DNA of 64,000 nucleotides from the NCBI GenBank assembly GCA_019239825.1, contig JAFAZK010000221.1:1-64000 (forward strand). Direction: 5' to 3'. The translations under genes were made by a program, and so were the position numbers. Under the pieces are notes generated by a model, which saw only the letters and a program-made list of their open reading frames with translations, did not search any database and was not told the origin of the DNA. Shown piece by piece: positions 2,286 to 15,871 of the stretch; the first letter of the stretch is position 1, and each line of letters starts with the position of its first letter. This stretch comes from Verrucomicrobiota bacterium (GTDB lineage: Bacteria > Verrucomicrobiota > Verrucomicrobiia > Chthoniobacterales > JAFAMB01).

Positions 2286-3450
2286 CTCCTCTTTTCCCGA
2301 AGAACTCATCACCGAGCTGAAGCAACGGTCACTGTATCGGCAGTTGCGGACGATCGAGGCGGTGAATGGAACGAGCGTTAGTCGCACAGGCAAGCCGCTG
2401 GTCAACTTCGCCTCTAACGATTATCTCGGCCTTACTCAACATCCGAAACTAAAGATAGCGGCGGCAGACGCTGCCCAAAGGTTCGGTGCCGGCTCCGGCG
2501 CCTCGCGTTTGATTACCGGTACCCTGGCAATCCATTCGGAACTAGAAGCAAGGTTAGCCGCTTTCAAACAGACTCCGGCCGCCCTTACCTTTGAAAGCGG
2601 CTATGCAGCCGCCCTCGGCACCATCCCCGCTCTTTTTGGTCAAGGGGACGTGATCATTTTAGACAAGCTCGCACATGCCTCTTTGATCGACGGCGCCAGG
2701 CTCAGTGGCGCAGAAATTCGGGTCTATCCACACAACCGCTTGGAACGCTTAGCGGAATTATTGGACTGGGTTCGTGAGAAAAGAAGAGGCGCGAAAATTC
2801 TCATCATCACAGAGTCCGTATTTAGCATGGATGGCGATTCTTGCCCTCTGGCTGAGATTGTCGAACTGAAGGATAAATTCGGAGCGGCACTCCTTCTCGA
2901 TGAGGCACACGCGATCGGAGTTCTGGGTCCGAACGGGGCCGGCTTAGCCGCCGAGTGCGGCTTGATCGATCGAGTTGAAATTCATCTGGGCACGCTCAGT
3001 AAAGCGATCGGATCCAGCGGAGGATTCATCGCCGGTCCCTCCTCCCTAATCGATCTCCTTATCAACCGCGCCCGCACTTTTATATATTCGACCGCGCCTC
3101 CGCCAGCCGCGATTGCGGCCGCCATTGAGGGCTTAGGTGTCATTGCTTCAGCGGCAGGTGATCAGTTACGCGACGCCCTCTGGCGCAATCATGAAGTGTT
3201 AACGGTAACATCGAAGAGCCCCAAACGAGAAGAAGTACGATCCGCAATTGTTCCGGTCATTGTCGGCTCGGAAGAGGAGGCGCTTTCTCTTTCAGAAGAG
3301 TTGGTAGAACACGGCTTTCTGGTTCCAGCCGTACGGTTTCCGACTGTGCCCCGCGGTTCCGCCCGACTTCGTGTGACGCTGTCAGCGGCTCATCAACTCC
3401 AAGACGTCGTCAACCTCCGAGAAGCAATCAACACGTTGCACGCTGGGTAG
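2278..3450 (+). CDS. bioF: 8-amino-7-oxononanoate synthase
   Basis: PLP enzyme of the alpha-oxoamine synthase family, condensing pimeloyl-ACP (or CoA) with L-alanine, the first committed step of biotin ring assembly. The 390-residue length is normal. Visible features are LVNFASNDYLGL at the amino end, the stacking histidine near H133 (LDKLAHASLIDGA), D208/H211 in LLLDEAHAIG, and the PLP lysine K242 in GTLSKAIGSSGG. No ATG is available in the conserved amino end, so the start is probably the TTG at 2278, which lies inside a short-word repeat. No other bio genes are adjacent. Kbl at 8409 is a paralogue of the same fold, but this one lacks the Kbl-type insertions. Confidence 0.88.
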   Translation: MNSSSFPEELITELKQRSLYRQLRTIEAVNGTSVSRTGKPLVNFASNDYLGLTQHPKLKIAAADAAQRFGAGSGASRLITGTLAIHSELEARLAAFKQTPAALTFESGYAAALGTIPALFGQGDVIILDKLAHASLIDGARLSGAEIRVYPHNRLERLAELLDWVREKRRGAKILIITESVFSMDGDSCPLAEIVELKDKFGAALLLDEAHAIGVLGPNGAGLAAECGLIDRVEIHLGTLSKAIGSSGGFIAGPSSLIDLLINRARTFIYSTAPPPAAIAAAIEGLGVIASAAGDQLRDALWRNHEVLTVTSKSPKREEVRSAIVPVIVGSEEEALSLSEELVEHGFLVPAVRFPTVPRGSARLRVTLSAAHQLQDVVNLREAINTLHAG

Positions 3451-3945
3451 GCTGTGGCCCGATTTCCGCTGATGAAAAAGGCGCCAACCGCCCGAGCAAA
3501 AAAAAGAAACACATCTGACCCCAGCCACGCGTATGAGCTGGACACGCATCAACAGTTCCGAGAGAAACAGCTTAAGTGGACACACACTCGCTGGTCCCGG
3601 CTTGCGATCTTGGACACTACCGACTGAGGTGACCCGGTGTATTGCTTCCGCTAAACACCACGAAAGCAAACACCTTGAAAGTAAGAAACTCTTTACTTAG
3701 TCAGCCTAACCGAAGACCAAAAGTGCCTGCGGCGTTCTCTTTTTCGGCGACGTACTTCTGATCGTCGCAGAAGTTCGCCGATTAAGAGCGGATAATCCGA
3801 TAACGTTTTAGTTTTCATAACCTCCCTGAGGATGAGCAAATTTAATTCGGTTTGACCGAATTTCCAACGGCTAACTGATCCAGCTTTTCGATTATGACAA
3901 GTATAAATTATTCCAGAAAATATAGTCCGTATATCCCCGGTTCCC
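3451..3945. other. Intergenic region with one possible tiny ORF and an operator-like palindrome
   Basis: About 495 bases without a recognisable gene. A minus-strand ATG at 3818 is preceded by AGGGAGG only two bases away and opens a 41-residue, arginine-rich frame ending at 3693 (MKTKTLSDYPLLIGELLRRS at its start). I do not recognise it, and the spacing is too short for a good ribosome site. AT content rises from about 3780 to 3945, consistent with a promoter for the kefF-like gene. Confidence 0.4.
3844..3862. promoter_or_regulatory. Operator-like palindrome upstream of the kefF-like gene
   Basis: AATTCGGT and ACCGAATT form perfect 8-base arms around TTG, about 85 bases before the start at 3946. 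No T-run follows and the stretch is AT-rich, so it looks more like a protein-binding site than a terminator. No candidate regulator is adjacent. Confidence 0.35.
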
Positions 3946-4563
3946 ATGTCTAAGACAGCACGCCGTCTCCTGCTTCTCTTCGCTCATCCCGCTCTTCATA
4001 AGTCGCGCGTGAACCACCTCTTATTGTCCCACGTTCAATCTCTCCCAGGAGTAACCGTCAACGACCTTTATGAGGCGTACCCAAGATTTCTTATCAATGT
4101 CGCGCGTGAACAAGCGCTGCTCCTTGAGCACGACGTCATTATCTTTCAGCACCCGTTTTATTGGTATAGTTCGCCGGCAATTCTAAAGCAGTGGCAGGAC
4201 TTGGTACTCGAATTTGGATTCGCTTATGGGAAAGACGGCACCCGACTTCATGGGAAGCTATTCCTCACCGCAATTTCAACCGGCGGTCCGAGTTCGGCCT
4301 ATCAGCGTAGTGGTTCCAACTATTTCACGATACGCGAACTACTAGCGCCATTCGAACAAACTGCTCGGCTCTGCGGGATGACCTACCTTCCACCCTTTAT
4401 TGTTCCCGGTGTTCTTTGGATGGACGACGAGCAAGAACTTGCCAGCTACGCCTCAACCTACCGTCGAGCGCTAGAGGCTCTGCGCGACAACACATTAAAC
4501 GTATCTGAGATTATGAAATTAGATACGCTGAACCAAGCCATGGCTCTTTTACCGGCATCCTGA
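3946..4563 (+). CDS. KefF-like NAD(P)H:quinone oxidoreductase family protein
   Basis: A 205-residue flavodoxin-fold protein of the NAD(P)H dehydrogenase (quinone)/KefF family. Signatures are the FMN-phosphate loop at the amino end (LLLLFAHPALHKSRVNHLLL), the FQHPFYWYSSPAILKQWQD segment that shapes the active site, and STGGPSSAYQRSGSN. In Escherichia coli, KefF is a soluble subunit that activates the glutathione-gated K+ efflux channel KefC. Here the gene lies 3 bases before a KefC-like antiporter, which strongly suggests the same partnership. The start lacks a Shine-Dalgarno site, and the amino end is complete at this ATG. Confidence 0.85.
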   Translation: MSKTARRLLLLFAHPALHKSRVNHLLLSHVQSLPGVTVNDLYEAYPRFLINVAREQALLLEHDVIIFQHPFYWYSSPAILKQWQDLVLEFGFAYGKDGTRLHGKLFLTAISTGGPSSAYQRSGSNYFTIRELLAPFEQTARLCGMTYLPPFIVPGVLWMDDEQELASYASTYRRALEALRDNTLNVSEIMKLDTLNQAMALLPAS

Positions 4564-4566
4564 TTA

Positions 4567-6435
4567 ATGGAGTCTTCAGATTATCTTTTCCAAACGTTCA
4601 TTTACTTAGCAGCCGCGGTTGTCTCCGTTCCGATTGCTAAAAGGCTAGGCCTGGGGTCGGTGCTGGGATATCTCCTGGCTGGCGTCATCATTGGACCCCA
4701 CGTTTTTGGCTTTATCGGAGCAGCGCGCGGCGACGTCATGAACGTGGCCCAATTCGGGGTCGTAATGATGCTGTTCCTGGTCGGATTGGAACTACGACCT
4801 AATGTTTTGTGGCGCCTCCGCGGACCGATTTTCGGGTCGGGAACGTTGCAAGTTGCTCTGACCGCCCTGGTCTGTGCCGTCGTCGCGCTCTGTTTTCACC
4901 TTGCCATCGGCCCGGCCATTGCCGTCGGGCTAATTCTTTCCGGTTCGTCAACCGCGATTGCTGTGCAATCGCTTACCGAGAAGGGCTGGCTGATCACCAA
5001 AGGCGGGCAGACCTCGGTTGCGGTTCTGCTGTTCCAAGACCTCGCGGTGATACCTATTTTAGCGGTACTACCATTGCTGGGCACCGCCCATCCTGCAACC
5101 ACCTCGGCGTCCCACACGGCCACTTGGTTGCAAGCTTTGTTGGTTCTGGGTACAGTCAGCGCTATCATTATCGGGGGCCGTTTCTTGGTCAGCCCGATAT
5201 TTCATTTGTTAGCACTCACCCGGCTCCACGAGATCATCACGGCAGCCGCTCTGTTGTTAGTGGTTGGTATCGCTCTGGCCATGCAACAGATAGGACTCTC
5301 GCCCGCGCTCGGCACCTTTCTCGCAGGCGTGGTGTTGGCTGAGAGCGAGTACCGTCATGAGCTCGAAGCCGATATTGAGCCGTTTAAAGGGTTACTACTC
5401 GGACTGTTTTTCGTATCGGTTGGCGCCAGCATCGATCTCTCATTGATCCAATCCCAGCCGATTTTGATGTTTAGCCTGGTTATCGGGCTTTTGTTGATCA
5501 AGGCCGCCGTGTTGTACGGCATCGGCAAAATCTCACGTTTGGAGAATAGCCAAAACTTCACCTTCTCATTAGCCTTAGCCCAAGGTGGCGAATTCGCTTT
5601 CGTTTTAGTTGCGTTCGCCGTCCACAACCAAGTGTTCGATCAAGACCTCGGTGATCGGTTGATCGCCCTAGTTGCTTTGTCAATGGTGGCCGCCCCATTT
5701 CTTTTCACCATTAACGAAGTCTGGATTCAACCTCGGTTCTCTAGCCGGTTACGTCAGCGTCAAGCAGACGAGATCGACGAAGTCAATCCGGTGATTGTGG
5801 CTGGAGTTGGCCGGTACGGCGCGGTCGTTGCTCGATTACTGAACTCTCAGAACATCAAAACAACGGTGTTAGATTTTGACCCCGAACAAGTTGATCTGAT
5901 TCGAAAGATAGGCTTCAAAGTATTCTACGGCGACGCGACCAGACATGAAATGCTGGCTGCCGCCGGGGCAGCTCAAGCCAAGCTATTGTTGATCGCGATT
6001 AATGACGTAGAGGCTTCACTCCGTTTGGTGCAACTGGCTCAAAAACATTTTCCAAATCTGAACTTGTTCGTGCGGGCAAGGGACCGTGAACATGCCTACC
6101 GGTTAATCAAGATGGGTGTGAGGAATATCTTTCGAGAGACCCTGGAATCCTCACTTGAGATGAGTGTGGAAGCGCTTCGCCTCCTCGGCTTTGGCGCCTA
6201 CCGGGCCTATCGTGCCGCCCACACTTTCAAAGAGTACGATGAAGAGACGGTCCGAGTACTGGCCGAGTATTATGGTACCGACGAAAAAGATTTTCTCGGT
6301 CAGATACGAAAGAGAGTACAAACCCTCGACGAACTGTTCGAATCCGAACGAGCGGTTTCGCCCGGACCCGACTCCGCCTGGGAACGACCGAAGGCTGCGG
6401 AGAAGCCGGAGGGAAAGGTTAAAGGTGATAAGTGA
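4567..6435 (+). CDS. KefB/KefC-like monovalent cation:proton antiporter (CPA2)
   Basis: A 622-residue inner-membrane protein, almost the length of E. coli KefC. The first ~390 residues carry about 12 membrane helices of the CPA2 fold, including the gating-region GEFAFVL motif near residue 341. Residues ~400-525 are a TrkA-N/RCK nucleotide-binding domain (AGVGRYGAVVARLL, then LDFDPEQVDLIRKIG and YGDATRHEMLAAAGA). It would expel K+ or another monovalent cation in exchange for H+, probably in electrophile stress. It is coupled to the preceding oxidoreductase gene by a 3-base gap. The final codons (K-V-K-G-D-K) and the stop lie inside a GTGATAG word repeat. Confidence 0.9.
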   Translation: MESSDYLFQTFIYLAAAVVSVPIAKRLGLGSVLGYLLAGVIIGPHVFGFIGAARGDVMNVAQFGVVMMLFLVGLELRPNVLWRLRGPIFGSGTLQVALTALVCAVVALCFHLAIGPAIAVGLILSGSSTAIAVQSLTEKGWLITKGGQTSVAVLLFQDLAVIPILAVLPLLGTAHPATTSASHTATWLQALLVLGTVSAIIIGGRFLVSPIFHLLALTRLHEIITAAALLLVVGIALAMQQIGLSPALGTFLAGVVLAESEYRHELEADIEPFKGLLLGLFFVSVGASIDLSLIQSQPILMFSLVIGLLLIKAAVLYGIGKISRLENSQNFTFSLALAQGGEFAFVLVAFAVHNQVFDQDLGDRLIALVALSMVAAPFLFTINEVWIQPRFSSRLRQRQADEIDEVNPVIVAGVGRYGAVVARLLNSQNIKTTVLDFDPEQVDLIRKIGFKVFYGDATRHEMLAAAGAAQAKLLLIAINDVEASLRLVQLAQKHFPNLNLFVRARDREHAYRLIKMGVRNIFRETLESSLEMSVEALRLLGFGAYRAYRAAHTFKEYDEETVRVLAEYYGTDEKDFLGQIRKRVQTLDELFESERAVSPGPDSAWERPKAAEKPEGKVKGDK

Positions 6436-6620
6436 TAGGTGATAGGTGAAGTGCGATGCTGCGTAAGTCGCGCATAGCGAAGCGGATGCTCCGCCTACTG
6501 GCCAACCTGGAGAGAAAGACCAAATGGCGAGCGCCTCTTAGCGCACACTAAATCGAAGGTCCTTTCGATGGTGCTGAGGGAGGCCTTTTTATCTTTCACG
6601 TTTTGCTTTCACCTTTCACA
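6422..6620. repeat. Paired short-word array, word GTGATAG
   Basis: The left arm reads AAGTGATAGGTGATAGGTGA from about 6431, with the antiporter stop codon inside it. Loose complements (CTTTCACCTTTCAC) lie at 6604-6620. The match between arms is weaker than at other loci. Between them is an imperfect hairpin around ATCGAAGGTCCTTTCGAT (6551-6568), followed by a T-run near 6585 that could act as a terminator. Confidence 0.55.
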
Positions 6621-6692
6621 GTTCCCTAGCTCCTTGAAAGCGCCGGTTGGCCAGGGCAGTTTGAGCGGCACCGAAGTCCCCCAATCTTTCAC

Positions 6693-8129
6693 ATGAAAAT
6701 TCGACTGCTCTATTGTTCGCTCGTCTTCGCAGCCGCTCTTGCGCATTCCGAAGAGCAAAAGCCAGTCTCCTCGGTACAAATTAAAGGCCAAGGGAACGCT
6801 GCCGGAACCGAGATCGTGCTGAATCAGGTCGCCATGGACCAGTTCCCATCGGTTCAGGTCTTTGTAACCGTCTTAAAGGACGGTAAACCGCAATCCGGAT
6901 TAACCGCGGCTGATTTTCGAGTCCGTGAAGATGAGGTGGACCAGCAACCTTTGACTGTGGAATCTCAGTTGCCACCGCTCTCCGTCGTAATCGCGATTGA
7001 TAACAGCGGATCGATGCGGCCGAGATTGACCGAGACTCGGCAAGCCGCGAAAAGCTTCCTGGAATTGCTAGCGCCGGCTGACAGCGTCCAGGTCGTCGGT
7101 TTCGCACAACAAGTCAAAGTGCTCGGCCCGATGTCTTCCAATCGGAGTGCTGCCGGCAAAGCGATTGAACTTACCACCGCACGTGGGAACACTGCGCTCT
7201 ATGACGCGCTATTTACTTCGGTCGACCTGTTGAAAGATCGGCCCGGACGCAAAGCCGTCGTGCTTTTAAGCGACGGCGTTGATGATAACGGTGTTGGCAA
7301 GCAGTTGAGCAAACACTCACTACAAGACGTCTTACAGTTTGCAAAGCATGTGAATGTGCCGATCTATGCCATCGGGATCGGCACCGAGATTGATGAAGCC
7401 TTGCTGTCCGGCTTCGCCCAATCAACCGGAGGACGCTATTTCCTAACCCCAAACCCGTCCGAGTTAAAGAATCTTTACGACCAGATCGGACTCCAACTCG
7501 CCGGTCAATACCTGATTTCTTATACCTCCAACCTTCCTGCAGACGGCACCACTCGCGAAGTCCAGGTACGATACCAGGACTCGATGAGCGCGAAATCCTA
7601 TCAAGCGCCGTCGAACAAAGAAGTAGCCGAGGAGACGCCGGCTCCGCAGAACTCTCCGGAAAAGAAACAGTCGCAAAATTCTGTTCAAGGAGGTCTGGGC
7701 GCGATCTTTGGGCCAAATGGGATTTCAATCCACAGCAATGGCAAACAGATAACCGTGAACGGCAACGACGTATCGTTTGGCCAAGACTCGAAATCGAAAT
7801 CTGAGGCCACTTCACAGGCGACCCCCGAGACCAAAAAGAAGTCAGTGAAAGCGGCTGATTGGTTGCCAATTCCGGACGGAGCAAAAGAACTCAGCACTGC
7901 CACCGTGGGCACTCGAAAACAATTAATCCTTACCGTTGATCAGCCGGTTGGTGATGTCGCCGACTTCTATCAGCAACACCTGAAAGAACAAGGGTTTCAT
8001 GTCGTCACGGCAACCAGTGGTGACGCACAGACTCTTTTGGTCACCGGCTCCGGCAAAAATGCGGACATCGAGATCGCGTCCCAAGGCGAGAACCAAACGC
8101 TGGTGCGGATCGCGACAGATACGGAGTGA
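6693..8129 (+). CDS. Secreted von Willebrand factor A domain protein
   Basis: A 478-residue exported protein. Residues 1-18 form a signal peptide (LLYCSLVFAAALA). Residues ~52-92 resemble the beta-rich region that precedes VWA domains in acidobacterial and verrucomicrobial proteins (FVTVLKDGKPQSGLTAADFR). The VWA domain spans ~97-285 with an intact metal-ion-dependent adhesion site, DNSGS at 103-107. Residues 295-390 are low-complexity and rich in S, K, Q and E. A C-terminal module (~390-478) has conserved hydrophobic spacing but no family I recognise. It probably binds a protein ligand at the cell surface. It sits alone between repeats, and the ATG has no Shine-Dalgarno site. Confidence 0.8.
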   Translation: MKIRLLYCSLVFAAALAHSEEQKPVSSVQIKGQGNAAGTEIVLNQVAMDQFPSVQVFVTVLKDGKPQSGLTAADFRVREDEVDQQPLTVESQLPPLSVVIAIDNSGSMRPRLTETRQAAKSFLELLAPADSVQVVGFAQQVKVLGPMSSNRSAAGKAIELTTARGNTALYDALFTSVDLLKDRPGRKAVVLLSDGVDDNGVGKQLSKHSLQDVLQFAKHVNVPIYAIGIGTEIDEALLSGFAQSTGGRYFLTPNPSELKNLYDQIGLQLAGQYLISYTSNLPADGTTREVQVRYQDSMSAKSYQAPSNKEVAEETPAPQNSPEKKQSQNSVQGGLGAIFGPNGISIHSNGKQITVNGNDVSFGQDSKSKSEATSQATPETKKKSVKAADWLPIPDGAKELSTATVGTRKQLILTVDQPVGDVADFYQQHLKEQGFHVVTATSGDAQTLLVTGSGKNADIEIASQGENQTLVRIATDTE

Positions 8130-8134
8130 CGGTT

Positions 8135-8295
8135 AGCTCCGTAGGAGCGAAATCTTTATAGCAACCGTAACATAAAAAGGCGAACAGCTCCGCTAGGAGC
8201 GGCATAGCATTGTGGTTCCCGATCAGATGCCGCTCCTACGGAGCTGGTCTCGTTTCTTTCGGTTCGAGCTATAAAGATGTGACTCCTACGGAGCC
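8135..8295. repeat. Family C nested palindromic repeat
   Basis: The outer arm GCTCCGTAGGAGCGAAATCT starts at 8136 and is complemented by GCTATAAAGATGTGACTCCT from 8268. The inner arm AGCTCCGCTAGGAGCGGCAT (8186-8205) is complemented by ATGCCGCTCCTACGGAGCT (8227-8245). The element begins 5 bases after the VWA stop codon. Single arms of this family occur at 30585, 42696 and, inside a gene, at 48533. Confidence 0.8.
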
Positions 8296-13813: not shown

Positions 13814-15871
13814 CTAAGGCTGACTTGGTGCTGGCGCCTCGTCGGCAGACTCCTCCCGAATCACCTGTTTATACATTTCCGAACTGGCGGTCGGCACCCG
13901 CTTGAGCGCAGGATCATTGTCCAAATCGATGTGATATAGCCCAAAATCGCTAGCCGGCCCAAACTGTAGGCCCCATTCCCGATTTGAAGTGATACTCCAA
14001 CAAATGTAGCCAGCCACCGGGATGCCGATTGCTCGAGCGCGGGTCACTTCTCGGATGTGAGACCGCAAGTATTGCTCACGGGTGTGATTGTCGGCCTCTT
14101 CGATACATCCGTTCTCAATAATTAAGATTTCTTTGTCGGGAAACCAGCGATGTAAACGCGATAATGCTCTTAACAACCCAGGAGAATCTACCGGCGCGTC
14201 ATCGAACCGGCTCATGGACGCATCGATTAACTGGTGGACACGATGTAATTCGAAGCTGTCGATTCCCCAATAGTAATCGAGCCCAACAAAATCCTGCTGA
14301 CCGGCGCATTCCTTGGGACAGAACAATTCCGGCAATCTTCCGGCCATCCCCAAATGCCACCAGTTACTATTCAAAATGGTGCCTAACACGCTGCAGACCT
14401 TAAGTACCGGTTCAAAAAAATGAAGCCACGAGCGAAGCGAGTTCACCCGTTCGTCCATCCGTAGAAGTTCGAATTCTACGCAGCCGGCCCGGCCAAAGAT
14501 TCGTTCTCCTACCTGTTCGGCCAGCTCGAGTTCTTTCTTCAATCGTTCCGGCAACGAATCCGCATTTGGATCGAAAGTGACACCTACTCGGAGATGGCCC
14601 CGACTCCGAATGGCGTCAATCGATCGGCCATGAACAGGCGTTCCTGCCGGTAAGTTCCCAGCCACCACCGCGTTGACCAGGTTCAACAGATCCGGGTTAC
14701 CCCGGGCGACAGCAACGGCGCAGTCTCTTTGATCCAAAGGATCATCCAACATCTCGAGGGAATCAGAAAGTCCGACGTGCGTAATCCTTACCTCGTCAGC
14801 AAGGAAGCCATCAATCCACCCCGCCTCCAAAGCCTCCAAACCGTTATGATGAGTCTCAAACGGTCGGGGCAAGCAGCCAGGCGCTAGCCGGGCCAGCGTA
14901 CGATTGGCAACGGAACCGCGTACGTAACCAACTCGGTGACCGTTCAGATCAGCCAACTTCGTGACGCCGCTTCGCTTTCTTACCACCAAACGCTCGATGC
15001 TCTCATCGTATGACTTCGAAAATGCCACCTTCGCTGCTCGTTCCCGAGTCGGTGCGAATTGGGCAATCACCAGATCGACCGAGGTTGGCGGCGGTACCGG
15101 TGGTTCAGCCACGATCTTTGATCGTCGTTCGAATTGTTTCTTGGAACGAGTACGTGTCGCTACAAAATCAATACACCATTGCAACGCTGTCGGCAGCCCG
15201 AGCACGAAGGGATTTGCCCCGACTTTAGCCGCTGGATTTTTCCGGTGAATGGTTTCCCTGGCCAATCGGTGCCCCACAAAGATGTTACGAACTAACTGCG
15301 CCGCTCGGTCCAACTGCATCGAAAGCGTGAGCTCAGGTCCGCCACCCGGCGGAACCAGATACGTCTCCTGCCACCACGGCTTTACATAACCGTAAACCAA
15401 TAGATTCGGCTCATTAAAACTGATCCAATAAGGAACCAAATCGCCGATCGCCTCTACCACCTGAGCGACATAAGCCTGGTACCAGATAGGAAAGTTCTTT
15501 GAAATCATTCCCCCTCGCTCTTGCACATGTACCGGCCAGGTAAAATGATGGAGCGTCACCAGCGGCAACATCCCGGCATCGCAGATCGCGGAAGCAATCT
15601 GCCGGTAGTGCTCCAGCGCAGAAGTATCGTATCGACTCGGCGCGGGTTCCACCCGCGACCAGGCAATCGAAAATCGGAAAATTTTGCATCCGAGGTCGCG
15701 CGCAAGACCGATATCCTCAGGGTAGCGATTCCAAAAATCGGTCGCTTTTCCCCGTAAAGTTTGGCCCGCTAGCCGTTCCCATTCGTCTCGGAAATCCGGG
15801 AGGGTCGAATCAAAGGCCTCGGCCTGATGATCTGCCGTCGCCACGCCAAATAGAAGCTTCGGTAAGTTCAA
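13814..15871 (-). CDS. GH1 glycosidase with an inserted solute-binding-protein-like domain
   Basis: 685 residues, against about 450 for ordinary GH1 beta-glycosidases. Residues 1-225 are the first part of the (beta/alpha)8 barrel (LLFGVATADHQAEAF, TLHHFTWPVHVQERGG) with acid/base E154 in FNEPN. Residues ~490-670 are the rest, with DFVGLDYYWG, the nucleophile E586 in LIIENGC, and CWSITSNREWG. Between them, ~262-480 resembles SBP_bac_3 amino-acid-binding proteins, but in permuted order. Its C-terminal two thirds come first (TRERAAKVAFSKSYDES, LADLNGHRVGYVRGS, LEAGWIDGFLADE); its amino third follows (GHLRVGVTFDPNAD, CVEFELLRMDERVNSL). No signal peptide is visible, so it is probably cytoplasmic. 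The TTG start at 15871 abuts a short-word repeat. All catalytic residues appear intact. Ligand-regulated hydrolysis is inference. Confidence 0.82.
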   Translation of the reverse strand: MNLPKLLFGVATADHQAEAFDSTLPDFRDEWERLAGQTLRGKATDFWNRYPEDIGLARDLGCKIFRFSIAWSRVEPAPSRYDTSALEHYRQIASAICDAGMLPLVTLHHFTWPVHVQERGGMISKNFPIWYQAYVAQVVEAIGDLVPYWISFNEPNLLVYGYVKPWWQETYLVPPGGGPELTLSMQLDRAAQLVRNIFVGHRLARETIHRKNPAAKVGANPFVLGLPTALQWCIDFVATRTRSKKQFERRSKIVAEPPVPPPTSVDLVIAQFAPTRERAAKVAFSKSYDESIERLVVRKRSGVTKLADLNGHRVGYVRGSVANRTLARLAPGCLPRPFETHHNGLEALEAGWIDGFLADEVRITHVGLSDSLEMLDDPLDQRDCAVAVARGNPDLLNLVNAVVAGNLPAGTPVHGRSIDAIRSRGHLRVGVTFDPNADSLPERLKKELELAEQVGERIFGRAGCVEFELLRMDERVNSLRSWLHFFEPVLKVCSVLGTILNSNWWHLGMAGRLPELFCPKECAGQQDFVGLDYYWGIDSFELHRVHQLIDASMSRFDDAPVDSPGLLRALSRLHRWFPDKEILIIENGCIEEADNHTREQYLRSHIREVTRARAIGIPVAGYICWSITSNREWGLQFGPASDFGLYHIDLDNDPALKRVPTASSEMYKQVIREESADEAPAPSQP

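Follow-up and report, generated by a model that had tools for sequence, protein, structure and literature searches.

How a GH1 glycosidase came to carry an amino-acid-receptor-type domain inside its catalytic barrel, and what that domain might do there, is the question raised by one gene in the Verrucomicrobiota DNA analyzed here (the window, a stretch of 64,000 nucleotides). A preliminary description had claimed that 432 residues, more than in ordinary GH1 enzymes, separate the catalytic glutamates E154 and E586, that an insert of about 220 residues of the SBP_bac_3 type separates the barrel parts, and that its lobes occur in exchanged order. The features concerned are the following.

13814..15871, (-) strand: whole gene, 685 aa from a TTG start; GH1 glycosidase whose barrel carries a permuted SBP_bac_3 domain
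15089..15871, (-) strand: GH1 barrel part one, residues 1-261, strands 1-5 (Pfam PF00232 at residues 6-219; secondary structure)
15410..15412, (-) strand: E154, acid/base glutamate in FNEPN (NEP motif); E in all examined members but one
14429..15088, (-) strand: insert, permuted SBP_bac_3 domain, residues 262-481, between barrel strand 5 and helix 5 (Pfam, phmmer, AlphaFold, Foldseek)
15002..15088, (-) strand: lobe 1 segment a, holding R278; residues 262-290 (VDLVIA...TRER), aligned to the GlnH R169 region
15038..15040, (-) strand: R278, equivalent to GlnH R169 and LAO R77, a backbone triad position in GlnH (alignment; PMC6069109)
14717..15001, (-) strand: lobe 2, residues 291-385; missing in nine Eremiobacterota homologues
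14795..14797, (-) strand: D359, equivalent to GlnH D250, a backbone triad position in GlnH (alignment; PMC6069109)
14627..14716, (-) strand: receptor C-terminal helix and linker joining the old C- and N-termini, residues 386-415 (alignment, model)
14429..14626, (-) strand: lobe 1 segment b, holding R475; residues 416-481, which correspond to the N-terminal part of an unpermuted receptor (phmmer, model)
13817..14428, (-) strand: GH1 barrel part two, residues 482-685, helix 5 to helix 8 (Pfam; secondary structure)
14114..14116, (-) strand: E586, nucleophile glutamate in IIENG (ENG motif) (alignment with the family)

The open frame reached only two codons upstream of the TTG start. In the encoded protein, the PF00232 match (2.8e-47) was divided into two stretches by an SBP_bac_3 match, and the sugar-site residues of GH1 enzymes were present (Q16, H109, Y534, W625, E632, and W633). 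The claimed spacing of the catalytic glutamates was borne out: 432 residues, versus 182 to 193 in ordinary GH1 enzymes from related genomes and 214 to 224 in subfamily members that lack the insert. An AlphaFold2 model of the whole protein, built from a 21-sequence family alignment, had a pLDDT of 84.9 and a pTM of 0.83 and contained a (beta/alpha)8 barrel; in a Foldseek search with this model, GH1 enzymes made up the best 50 PDB matches listed. By all features tested (profile, both glutamates, and barrel model), the protein is a GH1 member, and retaining beta-glycosidase activity is predicted. The top PDB sequence match of the full protein, 8IN1, was considered as a case of the same fusion and rejected, being an enzyme of the mollusc Aplysia in which two GH1 domains stand in tandem and a receptor is absent.

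The insert scored 34.0 bits against the SBP_bac_3 profile PF00497 (curated cut-off, 26.4), and a cyanobacterial member scored 90.5 bits. Its boundaries, at about residues 262 to 480, agreed with the alignment to insert-less relatives. An NCBIfam search placed residues 264 to 404 on amino-acid receptors, covering the two thirds toward their C-terminus. In a phmmer search against the PDB, insert positions 3 to 142 aligned with residues 113 to 253 of GlnH from Mycobacterium tuberculosis (6H1U) and positions 157 to 219 with residues 43 to 110, i.e., in exchanged order. For the window protein alone, the old N-terminal third of the receptor matched weakly, at 11 bits, which falls short of significance when taken separately; in a Nostoc homologue both permuted parts were significant (1.6e-36 for 5EYF, the glutamate-bound receptor of Enterococcus faecium, and 6e-33 for GlnH), which upheld the claim of exchanged lobes. 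GlnH residues 110 and 113 are neighboring chain positions, confirming the proposal that permutation brings the ends of the insert together; the new ends are adjacent residues in a normal receptor chain and thus fit what insertion into a loop requires. The linker between the old termini spanned about 12 to 20 residues in the window protein and was longer in other members, and no DNA repeats left by duplication were found at the insert ends.

Modeled alone, the insert had a pLDDT of 91.1 and a pTM of 0.84, and its closest solved structures in Foldseek were the two-lobed amino-acid receptors Peb1A, 5EYF, GlnH, and similar proteins. The two-lobed binding fold for which the preliminary description had proposed a structural check was therefore recovered. 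The sequential match covered about 145 of 227 residues at approximately 2 A, a partial coverage expected for a permuted chain. In the whole-protein model, strand 5 comprised residues 216 to 220, helix 5 residues 482 to 502 (aligned with ordinary GH1), and strand 6 residues 528 to 532. The beta5-alpha5 connection of a (beta/alpha)8 barrel belongs to its catalytic face, and the topology therefore puts the insert on that face. The pTM of 0.83, reached over two large domains, suggests some confidence in how the domains are predicted to lie relative to each other.

No signal peptide was detected in the window protein or its homologues (83 homologous frames), so that a cytosolic location of the receptor domain is most likely. 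An exported enzyme with a periplasmic sensor was considered and rejected, as the hydrophobic stretches seen in 7 of the 83 frames fell upstream of the likely start codon. The normal N-to-C order of the lobes was likewise absent, and the insert is a descendant of SBP_bac_3 receptors that departs from two of their usual features, chain order and export.

The arrangement was not limited to one genome. The full architecture was found in at least four phyla: Verrucomicrobiota (the genus of the window, a second genus of its family, and another family), cyanobacteria (mostly Nostocales, plus one other cyanobacterium), Chloroflexi, and Eremiobacterota. The subfamily as a whole was present in 5 of 289 sampled genomes of Verrucomicrobiota, 2 of 339 of cyanobacteria, 4 of 149 of the order of the Nostoc genome, 8 of 400 of Chloroflexi (some insert-less), 1 of 111 of Deinococcota (insert-less), and 52 of 148 of Eremiobacterota, about a third, with the insert in most. 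One Chloroflexi genome (G345) carried two copies, one inserted and one insert-less. Two homologues were split by frameshifts, either sequencing errors or real: L010 in lobe 2 (ORFs 2606-3697 and 3541-4671) and L028, from Westiellopsis, in the linker of the receptor's old termini (5947-7404 and 7326-8168).

In a tree of the barrel only, the subfamily was separated from ordinary GH1 enzymes with 99% support and held inserted, insert-less, and one-lobed members. Constraining all inserted members to one clade was compatible with the data (AU test, p 0.68, likelihood slightly above that of the free tree); a single insertion is thus sufficient. Nine Eremiobacterota members (L104 to L110, L114, and L115) lacked lobe 2 and kept lobe 1, and they amount to a natural series of deletions within the insert. 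A single loss of lobe 2 was rejected (AU p 4.9e-5), so that the lobe was lost at least twice; as the enzyme was retained after these losses, any gating must be dispensable in some lineages. Within the genus of the window, comparison with L008 indicated purifying selection, with omega values of 0.105 for the insert and 0.071 for the N-terminal barrel half.

Whether the insert could still bind a ligand was judged against GlnH, in which S164, R169, and D250 hold the backbone groups of the amino acid and R147, T162, and W232 hold the side-chain carboxylate (PMC6069109). In cyanobacteria and Chloroflexi, the equivalents of these residues were largely kept: T or S at position 164 and R at 169 in 22 of 22 members, D at 250 in 21 of 22 (one E), R at 147 in all 21 where it was readable, T at 121 in 22 of 22, mostly T or N at 162, and an aromatic residue or His (one E) at 232. 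The window protein kept R278, D359, and R475 (GlnH R147 in the alignment); A273, Q271, and V321 replaced polar S/T residues, and H341 occupied the W232 position. Its triad thus reads A-R-D plus R, and the pocket loop of lobe 1 was shortened. Among 39 representative members, R475, D359, and R278 ranked 12th, 21st, and 24th in conservation over the 217 insert columns, unlike the polar pocket positions, which varied.

The conservation of the two arginines calls for a cautious reading, since among the nine one-lobed Eremiobacterota the R278 equivalent was kept in eight and the R475 equivalent in all nine. Both may therefore be structural, and binding is better judged from the polar positions and from D359, which lies on lobe 2. 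This stronger evidence, the D250 equivalent together with the polar pocket, was best kept in cyanobacteria and Chloroflexi. Conservation of the ligand residues among homologues, on which the preliminary description had made its claim depend, accordingly held for these two phyla and only in part for the window protein and Eremiobacterota; it was poor in the second Verrucomicrobiota family (L133 to L136), which had lost the R278 equivalent and a few other pocket residues. The pocket of the cyanobacterial and Chloroflexi proteins is of the glutamate/aspartate type, and their ligand would most likely be one of these two amino acids. Given the changed pocket, the lineage of the window may bind a different ligand or may have lost sensing.

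The neighboring genes bear on what the enzyme does. In Nostocales, the gene came after either a GMC oxidoreductase/alpha-beta hydrolase/patatin group or a second group consisting of P450, RoxA-like cytochrome c, and metallo-beta-lactamase-fold genes. The insert-less Chloroflexi gene L030 also adjoined GMC and patatin-like genes; one GMC gene of this locus shared 47 to 49% identity with those that come after the enzyme gene in two Eremiobacterota. The patatin-like gene was 31 to 32% identical to the Nostocales patatin over nearly its full length. That similar neighbors stand beside inserted and insert-less members suggests that the role of the enzyme is older than the insert, which makes a regulatory or accessory role for the insert more likely than a changed substrate. 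The window gene had different neighbors: downstream a peroxiredoxin-like gene, as read from the sequence, and upstream a divergent antibiotic-biosynthesis-monooxygenase-type gene.

Several further observations were made at these loci. The GMC oxidoreductase and patatin-like neighborhood recurred in three phyla (L019, L030, L117, and L126), and a DyP-type peroxidase gene lay nearby in L126. The Nostocales GMC proteins (L019, 3-1505 and 4128-5669) and the patatin-like proteins (e.g., L030, 3021-4562) had in common a C-terminal region of about 230 residues at about 30% identity, which in the patatin protein is without a Pfam name. In the second Verrucomicrobiota family, the gene after the enzyme in L133 encodes a sulfatase; L134 has a related gene nearby.

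We propose, with a probability of roughly 0.5, that these proteins form a cytosolic GH1 subfamily whose ancestor gained a permuted receptor for acidic amino acids that tunes enzyme activity. The narrower form of the proposal, in which glutamate or aspartate directly gates a soluble intracellular glycosidase by way of the permuted insert, with relatives that preserve the pre-insertion, inserted, and partial-loss states, is put forward more tentatively, somewhat short of even odds. For both, we infer the ligand, the gating, the direction of the effect, and the substrate alike. The ancestor would have taken a receptor of the GlnH/5EYF type, circularly permuted, into the beta5-alpha5 loop of an enzyme already working in its pathway. 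The two chain ends that connect lobe 1 to the barrel would lie side by side on the catalytic face, with lobe 2 hanging off lobe 1. An acidic amino acid bound between the two lobes would close the receptor, and closure, with lobe 1 anchored on the catalytic face, would alter the shape of the active site or how it is reached. Turnover of the glycoside would thereby be tuned to the amino-acid state of the cell.

The repeated loss of lobe 2 with retention of lobe 1 is also what would be expected if the insert were a structural lid or an oligomerization element that shapes the entrance to the active site, with no sensing left, at least in Verrucomicrobiota and Eremiobacterota. The changed pocket positions in the lineage of the window and the missing R278 equivalent in the second Verrucomicrobiota family point the same way; most members, however, are still two-lobed, and cyanobacteria and Chloroflexi keep the polar pocket, including the D250 equivalent on lobe 2, which makes this explanation possible but doubtful. 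It is unlikely that the insert serves as a substrate recruiter that binds the amino-acid part of a glycoconjugate and presents the sugar to the barrel. An amino-acid-type pocket on the catalytic face would suit such a function, as would the lipid- or terpenoid-type neighbors (GMC oxidoreductase, patatin, alpha/beta hydrolase, and P450), but insert-less relatives adjoin similar genes, so that the substrate probably needs no insert, lobe 2 is dispensable in some lineages, and receptors of this type usually bury the whole ligand. An accidental fusion or assembly artifact was ruled out by the occurrence in at least four phyla and by purifying selection on the insert; with the confident fold added, these and a decaying gene are scarcely credible as explanations, the frameshifts in L010 and L028 being the observations that would speak for them.

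If the tuning proposal is true, a periplasmic-type amino-acid receptor has come to be used as a soluble domain in the cytosol for the control of carbohydrate chemistry. As the enzyme survives with no insert, with two lobes, and with one lobe, comparison of living proteins could serve as a direct test of how a binding domain becomes coupled to catalysis. Full-text searches of the open-access literature on this architecture and its analogues yielded no account of a GH1 enzyme with an SBP domain, and mentions elsewhere are possible; the main text of a survey of domain insertions (PMC13114784) does not mention the architecture.

The barrel fold, both catalytic glutamates, and the sugar-site residues are common to the window protein and the GH1 beta-glucosidases TmGH1 (1OD0), the Thermus enzyme (1UG6), and Cba3 (8ZNW). 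The window protein differs from these enzymes by the receptor domain of about 220 residues between strand 5 and helix 5, by F in place of W after the conserved H, and by D in place of N before YY. With the receptors 5EYF (Glu), GlnH (Asp/Glu/Asn), and Peb1A (2V25; Asp/Glu), the insert has the two-lobed fold in common, and the cyanobacterial and Chloroflexi inserts also have the backbone triad and the R147-type arginine; in contrast to these receptors, the insert is permuted, intracellular, and inside an enzyme, and the pocket of the window protein is partly changed.

To build switches, protein engineers place enzymes inside permuted binding proteins or binding proteins inside enzymes. The N-terminal domain of the natural enzyme MltF resembles SBP_bac_3. 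MltF combines, like the window protein, an SBP_bac_3-type regulatory domain and a sugar-cleaving domain in one chain, and the insert weakly matched MltF models (NCBIfam and phmmer). In MltF, the two domains are in tandem, unpermuted, and located in the envelope, and the catalytic SLT domain has an unrelated fold, whereas in the window protein the receptor is inserted into a GH1 barrel. Binding of muropeptides to the regulatory domain of MltF activates the enzyme allosterically and opens its active site (PMC10746161), and MltF is the nearest natural counterpart in function. The nearest engineered counterpart, among similar domain-insertion switches, is a chimera in which the xylanase XynA was inserted into a xylose-binding protein, giving a xylose-stimulated enzyme (PMC4536891). 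There, too, a binding protein and a glycosidase were joined by domain insertion, but the chimera is man-made, has other folds and another ligand, and holds the enzyme inside the receptor, whereas the window protein holds the receptor inside the enzyme. Both systems may be counted, by analogy, as precedents for gating, and it looks as if evolution made a natural version of the engineered domain-insertion switch.
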